64,000 nucleotides of DNA. It comes from Anaerolineae bacterium. Its GTDB lineage: Bacteria; Chloroflexota; Anaerolineae; Anaerolineales; Anaerolineaceae. This document shows, one piece after another, positions 53,069 through 63,945 of the stretch (position 1 is the first letter of the stretch; the number at the start of each line of letters is the position of its first letter). Position numbers and translations under genes: made by a program. A model generated the notes under the pieces. That model was not told the origin of the DNA. It saw only the letters and a list, made by a program, of their open reading frames with translations, and searched no databases. The stretch covers positions 124,001-188,000 of the forward strand of contig JABLWW010000009.1 of the NCBI GenBank assembly GCA_013178295.1. Reading direction: 5' to 3'.

Positions 53069-53155
53069 ATGTATACATTTGTGGGCGACTTTTACCAAGT
53101 CGTCGCGGCAGAGAAGGCGGGACGACGCCCATATATAACAAAAGAAACACAATGA
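53069..53155 (+). CDS. Possible 28-residue leader peptide before helicase
   Basis: ATG 53069 opens a frame of 28 codons (begins MYTFVGDFYQVV, ends RPYITKETQ) that stops inside the helicase start (ATGA). The helicase itself lacks a good ribosome site, so re-initiation from this short frame is plausible. No Shine-Dalgarno site precedes the small ORF, and it overlaps mutually exclusive RNA stems. It is low confidence as a real protein; it may only be a leader. Confidence 0.25.
   Translation: MYTFVGDFYQVVAAEKAGRRPYITKETQ
53083..53130 (+). promoter_or_regulatory. Leader with alternative stems
   Basis: Inverted repeats CGACTT (53086-53091) and AAGTCG (53097-53102) form one hairpin. GTCGTC (53099-53104) and GACGAC (53121-53126) form a second that uses part of the same bases, and GGGC (53083-53086) can pair with GCCC (53127-53130). 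Only one of the first two can form at a time, as in attenuation or translational switches. Confidence 0.3.
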
Positions 53156-56100
53156 CGACTCTTGAAGATCTAAAACCAAATTGCCGGGTGAAGGGAATCT
53201 TACCGAACGACACGGTGACCATTCTCAGTGTGCAGTGGCATGGCTCGGATGTTGTTGAGGTGGCTTATCGTGGAACGACAGGCAACTTGGGAAATGAATT
53301 ATTGTTCCGCGATCGTCAATCCGCTCTAGAGGTCATCGCCTCTGGAATAGCCTGGGCGTTTGATGCTGACCCAGAGATGTTCCGACTGGTCTCCGAAGCC
53401 TACCGTATCCGTATGGCTTACCTGTTCGACCCCTGGCTGGCGATCCATCTTTCACAGGTGGAGCCCCTTCCGCATCAGATCACGGCGGTCTATGGCGAAA
53501 TGCTCCCGCGCCAGCCGCTGCGTTTCCTCCTGGCGGATGACCCCGGCTCCGGTAAAACGATTATGACTGGTCTGCTGATCAAAGAATTGATGCTGCGCGG
53601 CGACCTGCAGCGCTGTTTGATTGTTACCCCCGGAAATTTAACCGAGCAGTGGCAGGACGAGCTCTGGCAAAAGTTCCAGCTTCCCTTTGACTTACTCACT
53701 AATGACAAGATTCAAGCCGCCCGCTCCGGAAACGCGCTGGCAGAAACACCGCTGGTGATTGCCCGTTTGGATAAACTCAGCCGTGATGAGGATCTTCAGG
53801 CGCGTCTGGCGCAATCCGATTGGGATTTGGTTGTCGTTGACGAAGCGCATAAAATGTCCGCTTCGGTGTTTGGCGGAGAAATCAAATACACAAAGCGCTA
53901 TCGGCTTGGTCAGCTTTTGGCGAGCAGAACGCGTCATCTGTTGCTGCTTACCGCCACACCGCACAATGGCAAAGAAGAAGACTTCCAGCTTTTTATGGGC
54001 TTATTGGATCCAGACCGTTTTGAAGGCAAATACCGCGAGGGGGTTCACACAGTAGATGCCTCAGATTTAATGCGACGGCTGGTGAAAGAGCAGCTGCTCA
54101 AATTTGACGGCACGCCGCTTTTCCCGGAAAGACGGGCTTATACGGTTGATTATGATTTGTCCGATGAAGAAGCTGCTTTGTACAATGCGGTGACCAAGTA
54201 TGTTTCCGAAGAGTTTAACCGCGCCGATACGCTCGAAGCCGAGCGCCGCGGCACGGTTGGCTTTGCCCTGACCATGCTGCAAAGACGCCTGGCTTCCAGC
54301 CCGGAAGCCATCTATCAGTCGCTGCGCCGCCGCCGCGAACGGCTCGAAAGCCGCTTGAGAGAAGAACGGATCCTGAAGCGGGGCGGTGAGGTCCGATTGG
54401 ACTTTTTACAGAACCTGCCCCAACTCGACGCTGAGACGATAGAGGATTTTGAAGACGCACCCGAGGAGGAGCAGGAGCAAGGCGCTGAGCAGCTTGTAGA
54501 CCTTGCGACAGCCGCCCGAACAATCCACGAGCTGGAGCTTGAAATCGCCGAGCTGCGCCGTTTGGAGCAGATGGCTGACGCTGTGCGCCGATCGGGTAGA
54601 GACCGCAAATGGCAGGAGCTTTCACGCATCCTTCAAGAAAACGAAGAAATGTTCGACGCCAACGGTCAGCGCAGAAAACTGGTGATCTTCACCGAGCACC
54701 GTGATACGCTCAATTACCTGGCTGAGAAAATCAGAACATTATTGGGGCGTCCTGAATCGGTGGTTACCATTCACGGCGGGATGCTGCGCGATGATCGCCG
54801 AAACGTGCAAGCCGCTTTTGTGCAGGATAAAGACATTTTGGTATTGGTCGCCACAGATGCCGCCGGAGAGGGCATTAACCTGCAGCGCGCCCATCTGATG
54901 GTCAACTATGACCTGCCCTGGAACCCGGCGCGCATCGAGCAGCGCTTTGGGCGCATCCACCGCATCGGTCAAACGGAGGTATGCCACTTGTGGAACCTGG
55001 TGGCAGACGAGACGCGCGAGGGGGATGTCTATGCGCGCTTGCTGCGAAAGATTGAAGAGCAGCGCCGGGCGCTGGGGGATGGCGTTTTTGATATCCTGGG
55101 AAAATTATTTCGTCAAACCAGCCTGCGTGACCTGCTTCTGGAAGCCATCCGTTATGGCGACCGCCCGGAGGTGCGCGCCCGTCTGAACCAGGCAGTGGAC
55201 AACCTGGTGGACCGTCAGCGCTGTCAGGAACTGTTGGAAGACCGGGCGCTGGCGCGCGATGCGATGGATATCACCCAGGTACAGCGCATCCGCCAGGATT
55301 TTGAGCGCGCCCAAGCCCGCCGTCTGCAGCCGCATTTCATCGAGGCTTTCTTTAAAGCCGCTTTTGAGCATCTGGGCGGGGCGATGCACAAACGCGAGGG
55401 CAAACGCTACGAAATCACCCACGTGCCCTCTGTGATCCGCAATCGCAGCTTTAACCTTGGGCGCGGCAATCTGCTCAGCCATTACGAGCGGGCAACTTTC
55501 TACAAAGAAGAGATTGCCCTGCCAGGCAAACCCCTGGCTGAATTCCTGTGCCCGGGGCATCCTCTGATGGACGCCGTGATTGACCTGATCCTGGAGCGCT
55601 ACCGCTCCTTGCTGCGCCAGGGGACAATCCTTGTAGATCAGGCGGACCCGGGAGAAGAGCCAAGAGTGTTGTTCTATCTGGAAGAGAGCATTCAGGATGG
55701 GCATGCCGACGGCGGAGACCAGCGCCGCGTGATTGCCCGTCAGATGCAGTTTGTTGAAATGACCCGAGATGGCAGCGCTTCCCCGGCGGGACCAGCGCCT
55801 TTTCTTGACTATGCCCCGCTGGATGAGGTGCTGCGTCCACTGGCTGCGCCAATCCTAGAAGAGAGTTGGTTGAAAAATGATTTGGAAAGCAGCGCAAAGG
55901 CCTATGCGATCCAGCATCTGCTGCCGCGCATGTTCTCTGAAACACGGCAGCAGCGTGAAGAGACCGTCGCCCGCACGCTGGCGGCGGTCAAAGACCGGCT
56001 CACCAAAGAAATTAGTTATTGGGATCACCGCGCCCAGGATTTGAAAGCGCAGGAAAGGGCTGGCAGGGTCAATGCACGCCTGAACTCCGAAATGGCGCAG

Positions 56101-56646
56101 CGCCGGGCAGATGAACTGCAAGCCCGTTTGCAGCGCAGGCTGGAAGAATTGGAAAAGGAACGGCTGCTCTCGCCGCTGCCGCCGCTGCTGCTGGGAGCAG
56201 CCCTCATTCTGCCTTTTGGGCTGCTTGCCCGTCTGCAAGGGCTGAGCGCCCCTGAACCCGGTTTGTTTGCCAGACAGAAAAAAGCCGTTGAAGAAGCCGC
56301 CATGCAGGCGGTGATGGAGAAAGAACGCAGTTTGGGCTTCTTGCCGGTGGATGTCCACCGCGAGAATCTCGGCTGGGATATTGAATCCGCCATTCCCGGC
56401 AGCGGCAAACTGCGCTTTATCGAGGTGAAGGGACGTGTTGAAGGCGCGCAGACGATCACGGTCAGCAAAAATGAAATTCTGGCTGGATTGAATAAGCCTG
56501 AAGATTACATCCTGGCAATCGTTGAGGTCAAATTCACCGATGGCAGCGCTCAGCCGATCGGTGTGCATTATCTCCGCCGTCCTTTCCGCCGCGAACCGGA
56601 TTTTGCCGCCACCAGCGTCAATTACAGTTGGAAAGAACTCATGTAA
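53152..56646 (+). CDS. SNF2/DEAD-type helicase with C-terminal DUF3883 (DrmD-like defence protein)
   Basis: The protein has 1164 residues. Walker A is LADDPGSGKT (D129-T136), Walker B is VVDEAHK (D230-H233), then LTATPHNGK. The second RecA domain has VIFTEHRDTLNYLAEK, ATDAAGEGINLQ and RFGRIHRIGQ. A Glu/Arg-rich insertion at about 390-480 probably forms coiled coils. After a long middle region, residues about 1065-1145 form a DUF3883 domain (NLGWDIES, LRFIEVKGRV), a nuclease-like fold with a D...E.K pattern. The DDPGSGKT form is typical of the helicases found with DISARM and related anti-phage loci. It likely moves on or remodels DNA. GC-rich codon use unlike the genes to the left suggests transfer. 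Confidence 0.88.
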   Translation: MTTLEDLKPNCRVKGILPNDTVTILSVQWHGSDVVEVAYRGTTGNLGNELLFRDRQSALEVIASGIAWAFDADPEMFRLVSEAYRIRMAYLFDPWLAIHLSQVEPLPHQITAVYGEMLPRQPLRFLLADDPGSGKTIMTGLLIKELMLRGDLQRCLIVTPGNLTEQWQDELWQKFQLPFDLLTNDKIQAARSGNALAETPLVIARLDKLSRDEDLQARLAQSDWDLVVVDEAHKMSASVFGGEIKYTKRYRLGQLLASRTRHLLLLTATPHNGKEEDFQLFMGLLDPDRFEGKYREGVHTVDASDLMRRLVKEQLLKFDGTPLFPERRAYTVDYDLSDEEAALYNAVTKYVSEEFNRADTLEAERRGTVGFALTMLQRRLASSPEAIYQSLRRRRERLESRLREERILKRGGEVRLDFLQNLPQLDAETIEDFEDAPEEEQEQGAEQLVDLATAARTIHELELEIAELRRLEQMADAVRRSGRDRKWQELSRILQENEEMFDANGQRRKLVIFTEHRDTLNYLAEKIRTLLGRPESVVTIHGGMLRDDRRNVQAAFVQDKDILVLVATDAAGEGINLQRAHLMVNYDLPWNPARIEQRFGRIHRIGQTEVCHLWNLVADETREGDVYARLLRKIEEQRRALGDGVFDILGKLFRQTSLRDLLLEAIRYGDRPEVRARLNQAVDNLVDRQRCQELLEDRALARDAMDITQVQRIRQDFERAQARRLQPHFIEAFFKAAFEHLGGAMHKREGKRYEITHVPSVIRNRSFNLGRGNLLSHYERATFYKEEIALPGKPLAEFLCPGHPLMDAVIDLILERYRSLLRQGTILVDQADPGEEPRVLFYLEESIQDGHADGGDQRRVIARQMQFVEMTRDGSASPAGPAPFLDYAPLDEVLRPLAAPILEESWLKNDLESSAKAYAIQHLLPRMFSETRQQREETVARTLAAVKDRLTKEISYWDHRAQDLKAQERAGRVNARLNSEMAQRRADELQARLQRRLEELEKERLLSPLPPLLLGAALILPFGLLARLQGLSAPEPGLFARQKKAVEEAAMQAVMEKERSLGFLPVDVHRENLGWDIESAIPGSGKLRFIEVKGRVEGAQTITVSKNEILAGLNKPEDYILAIVEVKFTDGSAQPIGVHYLRRPFRREPDFAATSVNYSWKELM

Positions 56647-56689
56647 TTGGAACAACGTGAAGTTTGCTGATGATGGAGTGAATGCATAT

Positions 56690-56848
56690 ATGCCCTACCG
56701 CAAAAAGCTCATCGAAGTTGCCCTGCCGCTCGAAGCGATTAACAGACAAGTGGCGCGCAAAATGTTCTTCCGTTGCGGATGCCCGAGCGCATTGCGATTG
56801 TGGCGGATAGCTAGAAGATTGACACGACACAACGCTGTTCTTTCCTCT
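56690..56848 (+). pseudogene. Remnant of a DUF1156 methylase gene, 5' end only
   Basis: From ATG 56690 the translation begins MPYRKKLIEVALPLEAIN and continues with VAR..R.G.PS.L.LW.ARR up to AVLSS. It aligns with the first 55 residues of the intact DUF1156 protein at 57627. The first 33 bases of overlap (from 56696) are identical to those from 57636, then the copies diverge, with tryptophan and histidine positions changed. After 56848 the match stops and a promoter begins. The frame stays open to 56998 by chance, so a 102-residue product is formally possible but unlikely to function. Confidence 0.8.
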
Positions 56849-56861
56849 CAGCAAATTCGAT

Positions 56862-56890
56862 TTGACAATGGCAGCGATTTGTGCTATAAG
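56862..56890 (+). promoter_or_regulatory. Strong sigma70-type promoter before small RNA and NYN gene
   Basis: TTGACA, 17 bases, TATAAG, with TGC giving an extended -10. It is the best promoter in the window. Predicted start is near 56897, between the methylase remnant and two hairpins. Confidence 0.8.
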
Positions 56891-56896
56891 TTAAAT

Positions 56897-56958
56897 ACAT
56901 CCCCCCTGTTCCTTCGGGGACAGGGCGCGAGGCGGCACATTACCGCCTCTGCTTTTTT
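56897..56958 (+). ncRNA. Putative 62-nt small RNA or attenuated leader with two hairpins
   Basis: The predicted transcript starts about seven bases after the -10 element. Its first hairpin (56904-56925) is a nine-bp stem CCCTGTTCC/GGGACAGGG closed by a UUCG tetraloop. Its second (56927-56952) is an intrinsic terminator stem followed by six T. No start codon with a ribosome site lies inside. It is either an independent small RNA or a premature terminator that limits expression of the NYN-methylase-ATPase genes downstream. I recognise no known RNA family. Confidence 0.55.
56927..56958 (+). terminator. Intrinsic terminator between strong promoter and NYN gene
   Basis: GC plus GAGGCGG (56927-56935) pairs with CCGCCTC (56943-56949) and, after a single bulged T, GC; loop CACATTA; then TTTTTT at 56953-56958. 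It lies 36 bases before the NYN start codon. Confidence 0.85.
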
Positions 56959-56994
56959 AAACTTTCCTTTCTTCAAATGTTCGACAGGGGAAAT

Positions 56995-57621
56995 ATGATC
57001 ACGTATGTTTACGTGGATGGTTTCAACCTGTATTACGGAGCTGTTAAAGGCACGCCCTATAAGTGGCTGAATATTCTCAGTCTCTGCCAGAAACTGCTGC
57101 CAAAAAATAACATTGTTAAAATAAAATATTTTACTGCTTTGGTGGCTGCTCGTCCTGGAGATCCCGATCAGCCCAATCGCCAGCAGATTTACCTGCGCGC
57201 TTTGAGAACGATTCCCAACCTGGAAATCATTTACGGGCATTTTCTAGAGCACCCGGTGAACATGCCGCTCGTTGACAGCCTCTCTGGTAAAACAAAATAT
57301 GCGTATGTGATGAAAACAGAAGAAAAAGGCTCAGACGTTAACCTTGCCGCACATATGATCAATGACGGTTATAAGGGGCTCTATCAGGTTGCTGCTTTGG
57401 TTAGCAACGATTCTGACCTGGTGGAACCGGTCAAGATTGTGCGCAGCGAATTGAATCTTGCGGTGATTGTGCTCAACCCACGCCCCAAAAGCCCCAGTCA
57501 CGAACTGCGCAAATACGCTACTTTTGTCAAACCCATCCGAAAAGGTGTATTAGCTGCCTCGCAGTTTGCTGATAGGCTGACTGACGCAGAAGGTACTTTT
57601 CATAAACCCCCCAGGTGGTGA
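56995..57621 (+). CDS. NYN-domain (PIN-like) protein, putative RNase
   Basis: The ATG at 56995 has AGGGG four bases upstream and gives 208 residues starting MITYVYVDGFNLYYG, the classic NYN/LabA N-terminus. Putative metal ligands are D8 (VDGFN), the acidic pair in TEEKGSDVNLAAHMINDG, and the aspartates in VSNDSDLVEPVKIV. NYN domains are PIN-like nucleases, mostly acting on RNA. The C-terminal 30 residues are basic and polar. It lies six bases before the DUF1156 gene, so the two are co-transcribed. NYN is not a usual member of the helicase/DUF1156/DUF499 set, to my knowledge. Confidence 0.88.
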   Translation: MITYVYVDGFNLYYGAVKGTPYKWLNILSLCQKLLPKNNIVKIKYFTALVAARPGDPDQPNRQQIYLRALRTIPNLEIIYGHFLEHPVNMPLVDSLSGKTKYAYVMKTEEKGSDVNLAAHMINDGYKGLYQVAALVSNDSDLVEPVKIVRSELNLAVIVLNPRPKSPSHELRKYATFVKPIRKGVLAASQFADRLTDAEGTFHKPPRW

Positions 57622-57626
57622 ATTAA

Positions 57627-60578
57627 ATGTCCAATTACCGCAAAAAGCTCATCGAAGTTGCCCTGCCGCTTGAAGCGATAAACAAAGAATCAGCGCGCGA
57701 AAAGTCCATCCGTCACGGACACCCCAGCACACTGCACCTGTGGTGGGCGCGCCGCCCGCTGGCTGCCTGCCGCGCTGTGCTGTGGTCTTCGCTGGTGGAT
57801 GACCCCTCAGAATATATGCCCGATGAAGCCTCTGCCAGCCGCGAGCGCGAGCGTCTGTTCGCCATTTTGGAAGATCTGGTGAAGTGGGAGAACAGCAACA
57901 ACGAGGCGGTGCTGGATAAAGCCCGTCTGGAGATTGCCCGCAGCGTGGCGCGCCAGCTGGGCGTGGAGGTGCCGGTGGGCAAACAAGCCGTCAGAGAGTT
58001 TTTGGCAGCCCAAGCCCCGCCTGTATTGGACCCCTTTGCCGGGGGCGGCTCGATCCCTTTGGAAGCCCAGCGGCTGGGGCTGCGCTCCTATGCCAGCGAC
58101 CTCAACCCGGTGGCGGTGCTGATCAACAAAGCCCTGATCGAGATCCCGCCCAAATTTGCCGCTATGCCGCCGCTGCACCCGCCCGAATCCCCCGCGCCCG
58201 GCGCGGGAGGGGCAGGGGCAAAGAGCAAACAAGCCGAACTCTGGCAAAGGGAGTGGCAGGGCGCCCAAGGGCTGGCGGAGGATGTGCGCTACTACGGGGC
58301 GTGGATGCGGGCGCAAGCTGAACAGCGCATTGGGCATTTGTATCCCAAAGCCAAGATCAGCGCCGCACTGCTGGCAGAGCGCGACGACCTGCGCCGCCAG
58401 GGGCTGCAGCCCGGCGACGAACTGACCGTGATCGCCTGGCTGTGGGCGCGCACGGTGACCTGCCCCAACCCGGCCTGCAATGCCCAAATGCCGCTGGTGC
58501 GTTCCTTTGCGCTTTCGACCAAAAAGGGCAAAGAGGCTTGGGCAGAGCCTGTGGTCTCTCCCTTTCCGCTCAAGGGCGATGGGCAAGGGGTGAGGAGTAT
58601 TAGCTTTACCGTGCGGACTGGCGCAGGAAAAGCCCCCGAAGGCACGGTAAACCGCAATGGGGCGCGCTGTATTGCCTGTGGGACGCCCGTGCCGCTTGAC
58701 CATGTGCGCGCCGAGGGCAAAGCCGGGCGCATGAATGCCAAAATGATGGCAATTGTGGCAGAAGGTAAGAATGGGCGTGTGTATCTGCCGCCTGACCCCG
58801 AACACGAGCGCGTTGCCGCCTCGGCAGCGCCAGCCTGGAAGCCTGACCAGGAATTGCAGGGGAAATGCCGGGTGAGCGTGCCCCTTTATGGAATGAACAC
58901 GTTTGGCGATCTCTTTACCCCGCGCCAGTTGAGCGCGCTGACCACCTTCAGCGACCTGGTGGGCGAAGCGCGCCAAAAAGTTTTGGAAGATGCCCGCGCC
59001 GCGCTGCCAGCCGCCCCATCCCCAGCCCTTCCCCCCGCGTGGGGGAAGGGGGCGAGCGACCTCCCCCAAGCCTACGCCGACGCCGTGGCAACCTATCTGG
59101 CGTTTGCGGTGGATAAGGGAGCTGATTATTGGTCAAATATTTGTACGTGGCATAATTCTGGAGAGAAAATGCGTAACACCTTTGGGCGTCAAGCGATTCC
59201 TATGACATGGGATTATGCTGAAGCAAATCCAATGTGCGACTCTACGGGAAATTGGATGGCTATGGTGGATTGGATTTGGAAAGTAATTGAAATTGCCCCT
59301 GCTTCATCCGACGGCTTTGTTACGCAAGCCGACGCGCAAGGATTGAATACTCATTCGAATATCCTCATTTCTACTGACCCGCCTTACTATGATAACATCG
59401 GTTACGCTGATCTTGCAGATTTCTTTTACGTTTGGCTACGGTCTATATTAAGTCGAGTATATCCTGAACTCTTCAGCACCCTGTTGGTGCCAAAATCGCA
59501 AGAGTTGGTTGCCACTCCATATCGTTTTGGCGGAGATAAGCAGAAAGCAGAAGAATTTTTTGAAGAAGGACTCCGCCAGGCTTTTCGCAACTTTCGGCAA
59601 TTGGCAAACCCGCACTACCCTGTTACCGTTTATTATGCTTTCAAGCAGTCGGAAGAAGAAGTTGACTTAGAAGACAAGCCCTCATTCTCAGGGGGGCGCG
59701 CCTCTACCGGTTGGGAAACGATGCTGGAGGGTTTGCTGGCAAGCGGTTTTGAAATCACTGGCACCTGGCCAATGCGCACCGAACTGGCAAACCGCAGCGT
59801 AGGGTTGGGCACCAACGCCCTGGCGTCCTCGATCGTCCTTGTCTGCCGTCCGCGCCCGGCTGATGCTCCTGCCATCACCCGCCGCGAGTTCCTGGCTGCA
59901 CTCAAGCGCGAACTGCCCGCTGCGCTGCGCCAGTTGCAGCAGGGCAGCATCGCCGCGGTGGACCTGGCGCAAGCCGCCATCGGTCCGGGCATGGCAGTCT
60001 TTTCGCGCTACCATGCGGTGCTGGAAGCCGATGGATCGCCCATGCGCGTGCGCGCCGCCCTGGCGCTGATCAACCAGGCGCTGGACGAGTACCTGGCGGA
60101 GCAGGAGGGCGAATATGACGCCGAGACACGCTGGGCGCTGGCATGGTTTGAACAGTACGGGCACGAGGTGGGTCCCTATGGGGTTGCCGAGACGCTTTCC
60201 AAAGCCAAAAACACCAGCGTGGAAGGGCTGGCGCAGGCTGGCTTTCTGGAAGCGCGCGGCGGCAGGGTGCGTCTGCTGCACAGGGAGGAACTGGTGCAGG
60301 ATTGGGGCCCCGCCAAGGATCAACGCCTCACCGTCTGGGAAGCGGCGCAATATCTCATCCGTGCCCTGGATAGGGAGGGCGAACAGGGCGGCGGGGTTTT
60401 GCTGGCAAAGCTGGGCGGCGTCGGCGAAGCGGCGCGCGACCTTGCCTACCGCCTTTACACTATCTGCGAACGCAAAGGCTGGGCGCAGGAAGCGCTGGCG
60501 TATAACATGCTGGCGGTTGTCTGGCAAAGGATCAAAGAACAAGCCGGCAAGGTTGCGCGGCAGGAGCGTTTGTTGTAA
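57627..60578 (+). CDS. DUF1156 DNA methylase with zinc-ribbon insertion
   Basis: There are 983 residues with AGGTGG before the ATG. The N-terminus (MSNYRKKLIEVALPLEAIN...HGHPSTLHLWWARRPL) is the DUF1156 domain. The SAM site is LDPFAGGGSIPLEAQ (D135-S142). CPNPACNAQMP and CIACGTPVP form a zinc ribbon. The catalytic motif is TDPPYYDN (D584-N590), which implies N6-adenine or N4-cytosine methylation. The gene is a mosaic: GC-rich (about 68% in 60 bases at 57901), but AT-rich from about 59105 to 59690 (about 38% in 60 bases at 59341). Three palindromic repeats sit in frame at 58181, 58556 and 59014. The likely role is to mark self DNA for the defence system. Confidence 0.9.
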   Translation: MSNYRKKLIEVALPLEAINKESAREKSIRHGHPSTLHLWWARRPLAACRAVLWSSLVDDPSEYMPDEASASRERERLFAILEDLVKWENSNNEAVLDKARLEIARSVARQLGVEVPVGKQAVREFLAAQAPPVLDPFAGGGSIPLEAQRLGLRSYASDLNPVAVLINKALIEIPPKFAAMPPLHPPESPAPGAGGAGAKSKQAELWQREWQGAQGLAEDVRYYGAWMRAQAEQRIGHLYPKAKISAALLAERDDLRRQGLQPGDELTVIAWLWARTVTCPNPACNAQMPLVRSFALSTKKGKEAWAEPVVSPFPLKGDGQGVRSISFTVRTGAGKAPEGTVNRNGARCIACGTPVPLDHVRAEGKAGRMNAKMMAIVAEGKNGRVYLPPDPEHERVAASAAPAWKPDQELQGKCRVSVPLYGMNTFGDLFTPRQLSALTTFSDLVGEARQKVLEDARAALPAAPSPALPPAWGKGASDLPQAYADAVATYLAFAVDKGADYWSNICTWHNSGEKMRNTFGRQAIPMTWDYAEANPMCDSTGNWMAMVDWIWKVIEIAPASSDGFVTQADAQGLNTHSNILISTDPPYYDNIGYADLADFFYVWLRSILSRVYPELFSTLLVPKSQELVATPYRFGGDKQKAEEFFEEGLRQAFRNFRQLANPHYPVTVYYAFKQSEEEVDLEDKPSFSGGRASTGWETMLEGLLASGFEITGTWPMRTELANRSVGLGTNALASSIVLVCRPRPADAPAITRREFLAALKRELPAALRQLQQGSIAAVDLAQAAIGPGMAVFSRYHAVLEADGSPMRVRAALALINQALDEYLAEQEGEYDAETRWALAWFEQYGHEVGPYGVAETLSKAKNTSVEGLAQAGFLEARGGRVRLLHREELVQDWGPAKDQRLTVWEAAQYLIRALDREGEQGGGVLLAKLGGVGEAARDLAYRLYTICERKGWAQEALAYNMLAVVWQRIKEQAGKVARQERLL
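58181..58221. repeat. GC-rich palindromic repeat element A, in frame in methylase gene
   Basis: CCCGCGC (58191-58197) and GCGCGGG (58201-58207) form a stem inside a segment that codes for PESPAPGAGGAGAK. On the other strand it reads PCPSRAGRGG, the look of interspersed palindromic elements often translated as PSPxxGRGE. Confidence 0.5.
58556..58596. repeat. Palindromic repeat element B, in frame in methylase gene
   Basis: CCCTT (58560-58564) and AAGGG (58572-58576) form the stem; the minus-strand reading is LLTPCPSPLSGKGE, the best match to the common interspersed element. The plus-strand residues SPFPLKGDGQGVRS are low-complexity compared with the neighbours. Confidence 0.6.
59014..59070. 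repeat. Palindromic repeat element C, in frame in methylase gene
   Basis: A perfect 10-base stem (59026-59035 with 59041-59050, CCCTTCCCCC and its complement, loop CGCGT) in a stretch coding for PSPALPPAWGKGASD. The minus strand reads SPPSPTRGEGLGMG, the same element type as B. Confidence 0.65.
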
Positions 60579-60597
60579 GAATCACAGGAGGATACAG

Positions 60598-63500
60598 ATG
60601 ACAATCAGCAATATCGAGCGCATTAGCAAGGGGCTGCACATCCTGCGGGCAGGGCTGGCGCCGTATATTCTGCGGGAACTGAAAAGTGTCTATAAGGAAC
60701 GCTGGTGGGCCAACGGGGTGGAAGCGGTGCTGCAAAACGCGGCAGGGCGTGAAGCCCTGAGCGGCGGCACGCCCGAGGAGCGCTTTGACAGGCTGGATAT
60801 CCAGGCGCTGCTGGTGGTGATGTGGGAAAACTGGAATGACGTATTCAAGGCAGAATTGGGGCACAGCGGGCGCAGCTATGTCAGCGAACTGCGCGAGGTG
60901 CGCAATGCTTGGGCACATCAGCAGCCTTTCAGCCCGGAAGACACCTTCCGCGCCCTGGATACTATGGCGCGTCTGGTTGAGATGGTGCATGGGCAGGGTT
61001 TGGACGAGCTGCAAGAGCTAAGCCGCGAGATGCTGCGTCAGCGCTTTGAAGCCGAGACAAAGCGCGAACTCAAGAAATCGGCTGCCGTTCTTTCTACCGG
61101 GGTGATGCAGGGGTTAAAACCCTGGCGCGAAGTCGCCACGCCGCACCCGGACGTGGCTTCTGGCAGATACAAGATGGCGGAGTTTGCCGCCGATTTGTTC
61201 CAGGTCATCAACGGCAAAGCCGAAGCGGAATACGCCAGCCCGCTTGAGTTTTTCCGCCGCACATATCTGACGGAGGGGTTGACCCGTTTGCTTTCGCAAG
61301 CCTGGGCGCGGCTGGCTTCGGCTGGCGGCGATCCGGTGGTGGAGCTGCAGACCAACTTTGGCGGCGGCAAGACGCACTCCATGCTGGCGTTGTATCACCT
61401 CTTTGGCGGGCAGATCAAGCCGCAGGATGTGCCTGGTCTTGAAGCCCTGCTGCCCGAAGGGTTAAAAAGCGGCGCAGTGGAGCTGCCGGTTGCCCGCCGC
61501 GCTGTGCTGGTGGGCACGCAGATCAGCCCGGCTGAGGTGCGCAGCAAGCCGGATGGCAGCGAGGTTCGCACGCTGTGGGGAGAGATGGCATGGCAGATCG
61601 GTAATGCCATCGGCAAAGCTGGCGAGGCGTATACCCTGCTGGCGGAAGAGGATCGCCGCGGCGTCAGCCCCGGATCGGAGAAACTGGCAAAGCTTTTTGA
61701 CCAATATGGACCGGTGCTGGTATTGATTGACGAATGGGTGGCGTATGCCCGTCAGCTGTATGGCAAAGATGACCTGCCGGGTGGGTCGTTTGATGCCAAC
61801 ATGACCTTTGCCCAGGCGTTGACCGAAGCCGCCAAAGCAGTGCCGCATGCCATGGTGGTGGCAGCCATCCCGCAATCGGATATCGAGATCGGCGGCGAAG
61901 GCGGCAAAGCCGCGCTGGAGCGCATCCGCAACGTGTTTGGCAGGGTTGAAGCGGTTTGGAAACCGGCTTCAGCCACCGAAAGCTTTGAAATCGTGCGGCG
62001 GCGTCTGTTTCAGCCCGTCAGCGATTATGCTGCCCGTGATGCCGTCTGCCGCGCTTTTGCCGAAATGTATCAGGCAAACCGCGCCGAGTTCCCCTCTGAG
62101 TGCCGCGAGGCGGATTACGAAAAGCGTCTGGTTTCGGCTTACCCCATTCATCCCGAGTTGTTTGACCGGCTGTATGAGGATTGGTCAACCCTGGAGCGCT
62201 TCCAGCGCACGCGCGGCGTCCTGCGCATGATGGCTGCCATCGTACATGCGCTGTGGGAGCGTCAGGATGGTTCGCTGCTGATTATGCCTGGTGCAGTTCC
62301 GATGGATACCACAGATGTGCGTTTTGAAGTGACCCGCTACCTGCCGGAAGGCTGGGGGGCAGTGGTTGACAAAGACATTGACGGGGCGCTCAGCCGCCCG
62401 CTGGCGCTTGATCGCGATAACCCCAACCTTGGGCGTTATTCTGCCTGCCGCCGGGTGGCGCGCACCATCTTTATTGGCAGTGCCCCCTCGGCAGGCGCAC
62501 AAAGGGTGCATGGAATCGAAGAAGTGCGCGTCAAACTTGGCTGCGCCCAGCCGGGTGAATCAACCGCCGTGTTTGGGGATGCGCTGCGGCGGCTTTCTGA
62601 AGAACTGACCTATCTCTATTCGGATGCGACGCGCTATTGGTTTGACACGCGCCCCACCATTACGCGCATTGCCTCTGACCGCGCCGCGCTGTATGAAAGG
62701 AAACCCGAAACTATCGAGGATGAAATCATCAGACGCGTGCGAGAACTTGTGCGCCGCGAGCGGGGAGATTTTGCCGCTGTGCATGCGATTCCGGGAAGCA
62801 GCGGAGATGTCCCGGATGAAGCCGCTTGCCGCCTGGTCATCCTGCCACCCTCGTGTGCGCACCGCACCAGAAGCGAACAAAGCAAAGCGCTCAGTGCAAC
62901 GCGCGAGATGCTGGAACAGCGCGGCAGCAGCCCGCGCCTCTATCGCAATATGCTGGTTTTTCTGGCAGCGGACGCTGAAAGATTGGCAGAATTGGAGCAG
63001 GCAGTGCGTCATTGGCTGGCTTGGACCTCGATTAGACAAGAGGAAGAGCAGTTAAACCTGGATGCTAATCAGAAGCGTCAGGTCGAAAAACAGATTCAAA
63101 ATTACGAGGATACCATCCAAGCCCGTCTGCTGGAGACATACTGCCACCTGATCGTCCCCACCCAGGATGGCACCAACCCGATGACGTATTCGGTCAGCCG
63201 CTTGCAGGGTGGCGAAAGCCTGGTGGAGCGCGCTGCCAGTAAACTCAAAAACGATCAGCAATTGATCACCAAATGGTCGCCTGCTCTGCTGCGGATGGAA
63301 TTAGACCGCTGGCTTTGGAAAGACGCCAACCACATCGGTGTAAGACAATTGTGGGAATATATGGCGCAGTATCTGTATCTTTCCCGATTGAAAGATGAAA
63401 CAGTGCTGATTGCAGCCATCCGGGATGGGGTTAGCTCTTTGACATGGGGTGATTATTTTGCCTATGCCTCTGCGGTTCGCGAAGACGGCACTTACATGGG

Positions 63501-63945
63501 ATTAGCCGCCGGAAGCATTCCCAGCGTCGCTCTTGATCAGGCAAGCGTGCTGGTCAAGCCGGAGGTAGCCAAAAAACAACGCGAAGCGGAAGCCGCAGAG
63601 CAGGAAGGGCAGGGTCAATACCTAGGCGGTGAAAAACAGCCGGAGAAGGATGTGAACGAGACAAAAGTTGTGCCACTGCCTCTGCCACCAGACGTTGAGA
63701 CAAAAGTCGTCCTACGCCGCTTCCATGGCACGGCGGAACTGGATGCTACCCGTCTGGGACGAGACGCAGGCAGGATTTCTGATGAGGTTTTATCTCACCT
63801 GATTGGTCTGGTGGGTGCAAAGGCAAAAGTTGTTCTAGAAATTGATGTCGAAGTCCCCAACGGAATCCCGGAGGATAAGATACGGATTATCAGCGAAAAT
63901 TGCAACACGCTGAAATTCAAGGGACATGGATTTGAGGAAGTGTAG
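60598..63945 (+). CDS. HEPN(Swt1)-DUF499 ATPase, anti-phage associated
   Basis: The ATG at 60598 has AGGAGG six bases upstream and gives 1115 residues; the open frame upstream overlaps the methylase gene and is ignored. Residues 1-130 match the Swt1-type HEPN domain, with RNAWAH (R102-H107), the R-x4-H motif of HEPN ribonucleases. Residues about 245-560 form the DUF499 P-loop ATPase: NFGGGKTHS (K258, T259) and VLIDEWVAYARQL (D378, E379). The C-terminus is the DUF499 beta-rich end (ELDATRLGRDAGRISDEVLSHL). An ATPase with an RNase-like N-terminus beside a methylase and helicase fits a phage-sensing effector. It ends 55 bases before the window end, and no further gene is visible there. Confidence 0.88.
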   Translation: MTISNIERISKGLHILRAGLAPYILRELKSVYKERWWANGVEAVLQNAAGREALSGGTPEERFDRLDIQALLVVMWENWNDVFKAELGHSGRSYVSELREVRNAWAHQQPFSPEDTFRALDTMARLVEMVHGQGLDELQELSREMLRQRFEAETKRELKKSAAVLSTGVMQGLKPWREVATPHPDVASGRYKMAEFAADLFQVINGKAEAEYASPLEFFRRTYLTEGLTRLLSQAWARLASAGGDPVVELQTNFGGGKTHSMLALYHLFGGQIKPQDVPGLEALLPEGLKSGAVELPVARRAVLVGTQISPAEVRSKPDGSEVRTLWGEMAWQIGNAIGKAGEAYTLLAEEDRRGVSPGSEKLAKLFDQYGPVLVLIDEWVAYARQLYGKDDLPGGSFDANMTFAQALTEAAKAVPHAMVVAAIPQSDIEIGGEGGKAALERIRNVFGRVEAVWKPASATESFEIVRRRLFQPVSDYAARDAVCRAFAEMYQANRAEFPSECREADYEKRLVSAYPIHPELFDRLYEDWSTLERFQRTRGVLRMMAAIVHALWERQDGSLLIMPGAVPMDTTDVRFEVTRYLPEGWGAVVDKDIDGALSRPLALDRDNPNLGRYSACRRVARTIFIGSAPSAGAQRVHGIEEVRVKLGCAQPGESTAVFGDALRRLSEELTYLYSDATRYWFDTRPTITRIASDRAALYERKPETIEDEIIRRVRELVRRERGDFAAVHAIPGSSGDVPDEAACRLVILPPSCAHRTRSEQSKALSATREMLEQRGSSPRLYRNMLVFLAADAERLAELEQAVRHWLAWTSIRQEEEQLNLDANQKRQVEKQIQNYEDTIQARLLETYCHLIVPTQDGTNPMTYSVSRLQGGESLVERAASKLKNDQQLITKWSPALLRMELDRWLWKDANHIGVRQLWEYMAQYLYLSRLKDETVLIAAIRDGVSSLTWGDYFAYASAVREDGTYMGLAAGSIPSVALDQASVLVKPEVAKKQREAEAAEQEGQGQYLGGEKQPEKDVNETKVVPLPLPPDVETKVVLRRFHGTAELDATRLGRDAGRISDEVLSHLIGLVGAKAKVVLEIDVEVPNGIPEDKIRIISENCNTLKFKGHGFEEV

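Follow-up and report, generated by a model that had tools for sequence, protein, structure and literature searches.

A conserved two-hairpin RNA accompanies the HEC-09 NYN nuclease family and suggests a type III-like toxin–antitoxin module inside and outside Hma operons

In type III toxin–antitoxin systems, the antitoxins as described are RNAs encoded upstream of the toxin gene and co-transcribed with it. The systems of this type (ToxIN, CptIN, and TenpIN) combine a promoter, a structured RNA, a terminator, and an RNase gene, and the antitoxin forms a pseudoknot that is processed by the toxin. A tandem hairpin array followed by a terminator and a toxin gene is the layout by which ToxIN loci are recognized (PMC8860590). 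In the RNA-regulated system AbiF/RCd22, which was termed type III-like, the effector gene is immediately preceded by a small RNA that comprises two motifs and has a promoter and a terminator of its own (PMC12373285). A NYN protein located in Hma operons has already been catalogued as HEC-09 (Hma-embedded candidate 09, PADLOC PDLC04163), which goes back to Payne et al. (bioRxiv 2024, 10.1101/2024.01.29.577857; cited in PMC12988326). Several HECs have been reported to be antiviral (PMC12988326; PMC12111858 for HEC-04), and HEC-09 correlates with phage susceptibility in Pseudomonas syringae (PMC12447246), beyond which nothing on HEC-09 activity was found in the literature. In Bacteroides fragilis, a CRISPR-associated NYN ribonuclease, which likewise has an acidic active site and lies in a defense locus, is proposed to trim crRNA and has no dedicated partner RNA (PMC11346440). 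The HEC-09 entry of PADLOC is a protein profile only, whereas an RNA partner was found nearly everywhere in the loci described here, most of which are located outside Hma.

The locus under study is part of a window of 64,000 nucleotides from an Anaerolineae bacterium and contains a member of the HEC-09 protein family in the same Hma setting. The following features were assigned:

53152 to 56646, forward strand: hmaA, SNF2-like helicase (PADLOC HmaA, E 0), host operon, outside the module
56690 to 56806, forward strand: decayed second copy of the hmaB 5′ end with an ATG at 56690, recognized by nucleotide identity to the hmaB start
56862 to 56890, forward strand: sigma-70-type promoter, read directly (TTGACA, 17-nt spacer, TATAAG)
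56897 to 56958, forward strand: two-hairpin RNA of about 62 nt (fold; covariance model R1, 78.5 bits; covariation; no Rfam match)
56904 to 56925, forward strand: hairpin 1, 9 bp with UUCG loop (arms 56904–56912 and 56917–56925; 9 of 9 pairs compensated)
56927 to 56958, forward strand: hairpin 2 and U-run (arms 56927–56935 and 56943–56952, U-run 56953–56958; 10 of 11 pairs compensated)
56995 to 57621, forward strand: NYN/PIN-like RNase gene of the HEC-09 family (208 amino acids; PADLOC HEC-09 E 5e-42; Pfam NYN E 5e-10)
57627 to 60578, forward strand: hmaB, DUF1156 DNA methyltransferase (PADLOC HmaB, E 0), host operon
60589 to 63945, forward strand: hmaC, DUF499 ATPase (PADLOC HmaC, E 0), host operon

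The Hma gene order of helicase, methylase, and ATPase is intact in the window, and the hmaB-start remnant, the promoter, the two-hairpin RNA, and the NYN gene follow one another between hmaA and hmaB. The decayed methylase start, the near-consensus promoter, and the NYN gene had been placed between helicase and methylase in the first-pass annotation, and all three were confirmed by direct reading and alignment. The same annotation considered the combination of an RNA with a NYN gene in this operon to be unfamiliar; this was correct for the RNA, as no RNA partner of the HEC-09 family was found in a literature search that covered few preprints and subscription papers, but not for the NYN gene, whose presence in Hma operons is on record. 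Positions 56696–56806 of the remnant are 80% identical over 111 bases to positions 57636–57746. Remnants of the hmaB start are also located directly 5′ of the cassette in the two closest Hma-embedded relatives of the window, L009 and L056 (positions 5333–5425 in L056). Since the remnants of the window and of L009 are each most similar to their own hmaB, either the start of the target gene was repeatedly duplicated upon insertion or gene conversion homogenized the copies. The N-terminus of HmaC (60589–60990) is a Swt1-like HEPN domain (Pfam E 1e-35), which represents a second putative RNase of the same operon.

The promoter elements (−35 box TTGACA at 56862–56867, −10 box TATAAG at 56885–56890) match 11 of 12 consensus bases; the sole reason why a simple promoter scan did not list this promoter is its demand for a T at the last −10 position. 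From 5′ to 3′, the RNA comprises AUCCCC, the UUCG-capped hairpin 1, the bulged hairpin 2, and the U-run. The predicted fold has a free energy of −31.5 kcal/mol (z −4.5), which was equaled by none of 200 shuffled sequences. According to a terminator scan, hairpin 2 with the U-run doubles as an intrinsic terminator, and the bulge in hairpin 2 is conserved. The earlier proposal of an approximately 62-nt transcript with a UUCG hairpin and an intrinsic terminator is borne out as the prediction of a conserved, structured RNA that is linked to the NYN gene. Curated Rfam covariance models gave no match in the window at E ≤ 5 and, on 20 homologous loci, matched only tRNAs and CRISPR repeats elsewhere in the loci. 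VIPR guide RNAs proved to be unrelated. In one centroid fold, the 5′ CCCC of the RNA pairs with the ribosome-binding site of the NYN gene, as it would with any G-rich ribosome-binding site. In the genome from which the window derives, the RNA and HEC-09 each occur once.

The HEC-09 profile spans the entire NYN protein (residues 4–208 of 208, profile positions 5–202 of 203), and an alternative start at 56977 is unsupported by the relatives. The AlphaFold model (pLDDT 94) displays a confident NYN fold, to which segments are added, among them a C-terminal tail ending in KPxxW. The nearest structures identified by Foldseek are the NYN domains of VPA0982 (PDB 2QIP) and MARF1, which share the fold and comprise 150–162 residues compared to 208 in the protein of the window. 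No partner RNA is known for VPA0982 or MARF1. The acidic active site residues D8, D114, D139, and D141 are invariant in 57 sequences, and dN/dS values of 0.045 and 0.050 were obtained against two relatives, which are rough estimates with dS near saturation. Because of the NYN fold, the invariant acidic residues, and the purifying selection indicated by the low dN/dS, the protein is very likely a working RNase.

Relatives in other genomes have the same order of promoter, two hairpins, and NYN gene, with differing stem sequences and in unrelated genomic places. Twelve of these loci were used to build a covariance model, which was tested on loci fetched separately by protein similarity alone (80 loci from GTDB genomes, 79 of them searched; about 14 phyla according to the record titles) and detected the RNA adjoining the NYN gene in 76 of the 79 HEC-09 loci. 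Two of the three remaining loci contain truncated or contig-edge genes (L080 and L102), and the third (L127) has a variant form of the RNA by eye. In the model-based alignment, 95.3% of the cells are paired and 19 of 20 base pairs show changes on both sides; the covariation score is 0.566 compared to 0.195 for shuffled alignments, with none of 500 shuffles reaching the observed value. The compensatory changes given above for each hairpin were counted in 108 distinct sequences. As the model-based alignment is fitted to the structure, the analysis was repeated without this constraint: the 12 seed sequences, aligned with plain MAFFT and folded with RNAalifold, gave the same structure, in which 14 of 21 pairs are compensated. 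G–U is common or even the commonest pair at several stem positions, which points to an RNA rather than a DNA hairpin. The unpaired parts (AUCCCC, UUCG) are short and near-constant, and the variability is confined to the paired stems. A promoter with at least 9 of 12 consensus bases precedes 65 of 87 homologous RNAs (5.3 expected from shuffles) and most often ends 6 nt 5′ of the first base of the RNA. The conserved promoter, the paired RNA, and the covariation, which the first-pass annotation had proposed to look for in related loci, were all present. The covarying RNA is a new family, and the module of the window recurs beyond chance. In a Cys-containing HEC-09 subfamily (L003, L004, L028, L029, L031, and L033), the two-hairpin RNA is conserved differently and is co-directional with the NYN gene in some members and divergent in others.

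The RNA and the HEC-09 nuclease occur as a pair. Within 400 Chloroflexota genomes, the modeled RNA was located within 1 kb of 64 of 75 full-length HEC-09 genes and at only one of 40 tail-less NYN genes, in which the C-terminal part of the profile is missing (Fisher p 1.7e-19, a nominal value because related genomes are not independent). Upon inspection of the 11 full-length genes without a match, an RNA was recognized by eye in seven cases, co-directional in two and divergent in five; one further gene borders a contig end, and no RNA was visible in the remaining three, namely L272, L273, and the truncated L274. RNA and protein distances are correlated (Mantel r 0.50, p 0.001), which common descent alone could also yield.

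The orientation of the RNA varies. It is upstream and co-directional in 60 of 76 loci. Six loci from Acidobacteria have it upstream in divergent orientation, and in the other 10, mostly from Actinomycetota, it lies downstream on the opposite strand (convergent). The downstream form is also present in a Mycobacterium prophage (L262), and a divergent RNA was identified by eye on a Thermus plasmid (L268), where the module is again located inside Hma. The divergent and downstream placements indicate that the RNA acts in trans as a partner and does not serve as a leader; the conserved RNA accompanies the HEC-09 nuclease and can act from whichever side it occupies.

Of 118 strong matches to the RNA model, 37 were orphans, that is, RNAs without a NYN gene. 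A few of these lie beside NYN fragments and some near contig ends, where the NYN gene may be cut off. The reverse case of a NYN gene without the RNA was rare, and such an asymmetry is expected if the nuclease alone is harmful. Inspection of 36 orphan regions by eye revealed no common neighboring gene family, so that the idea of orphan RNAs serving another gene family was dismissed; a few of the regions contain NYN fragments. Among the orphan RNAs (L224–L259), several share their neighbors across related genomes (L231/L237/L238, L226/L228, L233/L236, and L240/L241/L249/L250), which suggests that orphan copies are kept.

At most loci, one or two RNA units are present, with one in the window and two in a row in some Chloroflexota loci. 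On mobilizable plasmids of 4.5–4.6 kb from E. coli, Klebsiella, and Salmonella, the hairpins form a head-to-tail array with a period of 33 nt, which is followed by the terminator and the NYN gene and thus resembles the ToxIN layout; five of six such plasmids have four units and one has five. One E. coli plasmid of 4.6 kb with this array is NZ_CP145651.1. A 3.4-kb E. coli plasmid (L260) carries two two-hairpin units. A more distant member on a Klebsiella plasmid (L265) differs in its upstream sequence, which includes a direct repeat. Tandem repeats are not a general feature: in 109 upstream regions, TRF detected the hairpin array exclusively in the E. coli plasmid type, besides two other periodic matches. 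The annotated NYN start in L283, L285, and L286 is located far upstream, within the RNA array, and is probably wrong. The NYN proteins of Cupriavidus plasmid pBB2 (L263) and of Shinella (H79) are annotated with an Xre/MbcA/ParS or DUF2384 domain and may represent a form that bears a protein antitoxin domain. IbfA, which is encoded by a Salmonella plasmid, turned out to be HEC-04 and not a NYN protein.

Hma neighbors were found at only 6 of 181 homologous loci, which is a lower bound because many flanks are short. The pairing is not specific to the Hma operon, as the first-pass annotation had implied, and a function restricted to Hma was rejected. In L095, the module is flanked by a type I specificity gene and a type I restriction gene, and in this locus as well as in L074 and L078 it lies directly 5′ of the restriction gene hsdR. 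The PrrC anticodon nuclease inside EcoprrI is a parallel to this arrangement. Other modules are located near resolvases, on plasmids, and in prophages, and some genomes hold four to six copies.

The best reading of these data is a type III-like toxin–antitoxin module, to which we assign a probability of roughly 0.66. Its toxin would be a PIN-fold RNase without relation to ToxN, and restriction-type operons often harbor the module. The order of promoter, RNA, terminator, and toxin gene known from type III systems is realized in the window and in 60 of the 76 homologous loci, the other 16 being oriented otherwise. The plasmid and prophage homes are a further likeness, to which the RNA repeats of some lineages may be added. 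Several points cut against this assignment: the RNA mostly consists of one or two copies of the two hairpins, the predicted RNA structure consists of hairpins, and the divergent or downstream position of some RNAs is unusual for type III systems. The toxin has a NYN/PIN fold and not that of ToxN; hence, the module is not filed in one of the known type III families, although it would work like them. RCd22 is similar in layout, and its effector AbiF (Abi_2) belongs to another protein family.

The module is a free-standing RNA–protein pair of the HEC-09 ribonuclease and a small RNA transcribed from its own strong promoter, which has settled inside the Hma operon in the window and inside type I restriction operons in relatives. 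In the most likely mechanism, judged from the architecture, the abundant RNA would bind and silence the nuclease, and the terminator between both would keep the RNA in excess over the NYN mRNA, which would arise mainly by terminator read-through. When host transcription collapses, either because a phage shuts it off or because the plasmid or island is lost, the RNA would decay first, and the freed enzyme would cut RNA and halt the infection or the segregant. Such an RNA-guarded effector, with the RNA as antitoxin, was one of two mechanisms offered by the first-pass annotation and is the better supported one; toxicity, inhibition by the RNA, release upon infection, and defense are the parts we infer.

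In an unlikely variant, HEC-09 would be a novel class of RNA-controlled nuclease, whose RNA does more than act as an antitoxin: as the sensor component of a resident ribonucleoprotein, it would monitor the cell for phage or for a block of the restriction operon around it, regardless of its own position and strand. Rather improbable as well is a role of the RNA as an activator of the nuclease or as a sensor of infection, according to which the RNA–NYN complex would be resting and competent until a phage product alters the RNA. The near-obligate pairing regardless of orientation, the embedding in restriction operons, and the conservation of the loop, the bulge, and the 5′ AUCCCC beyond the needs of a terminator would suit such a role, but orphan RNAs and arrays of varying copy number fit an antitoxin better, and a terminator between RNA and nuclease implies an excess of the RNA. 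A small RNA beside a nuclease in defense operons might also guide the enzyme to target transcripts; this is very improbable and was rejected because the stems vary and the RNA has no free variable segment. The second mechanism of the first-pass annotation, an attenuated effector expressed upon infection, agrees with the co-directional RNA ending in a terminator before the NYN gene in the window and most loci. It fails as a general function and is hardly tenable, since the RNA is encoded on the opposite strand in 16 of the 76 loci, including 10 in which it lies 3′ of the NYN gene, where attenuation is impossible, and orphan RNAs occur. Scarcely credible are a DNA recombination signal (attC- or REP-like) moving the cassette, which would fit its mobility through varied operons and the solitary hairpin copies but not the frequent G–U pairs, the UUCG-type loop, and the near-fixed promoter distance, and a mere insulator blocking read-through into a toxic gene, for which hairpin 2 acts as a terminator in most loci, but hairpin 1 covaries equally strongly and the RNA has its own promoter and occurs on the opposite strand and downstream.

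With the type III-like module as the preferred reading, a single-gene defense candidate is recast as an RNA–protein pair, in which the RNA is the new part, and a PIN-fold RNase would join the short list of RNA-partnered toxins together with a covarying RNA family spread over about 14 phyla. If HEC-09 is cloned without its RNA, the phenotype risks being misread. Since intact modules reside on E. coli plasmids of 3.4–4.6 kb, the idea is testable in E. coli at once. The locus also provides a concrete example of toxin–antitoxin-like modules settling in restriction-type operons.
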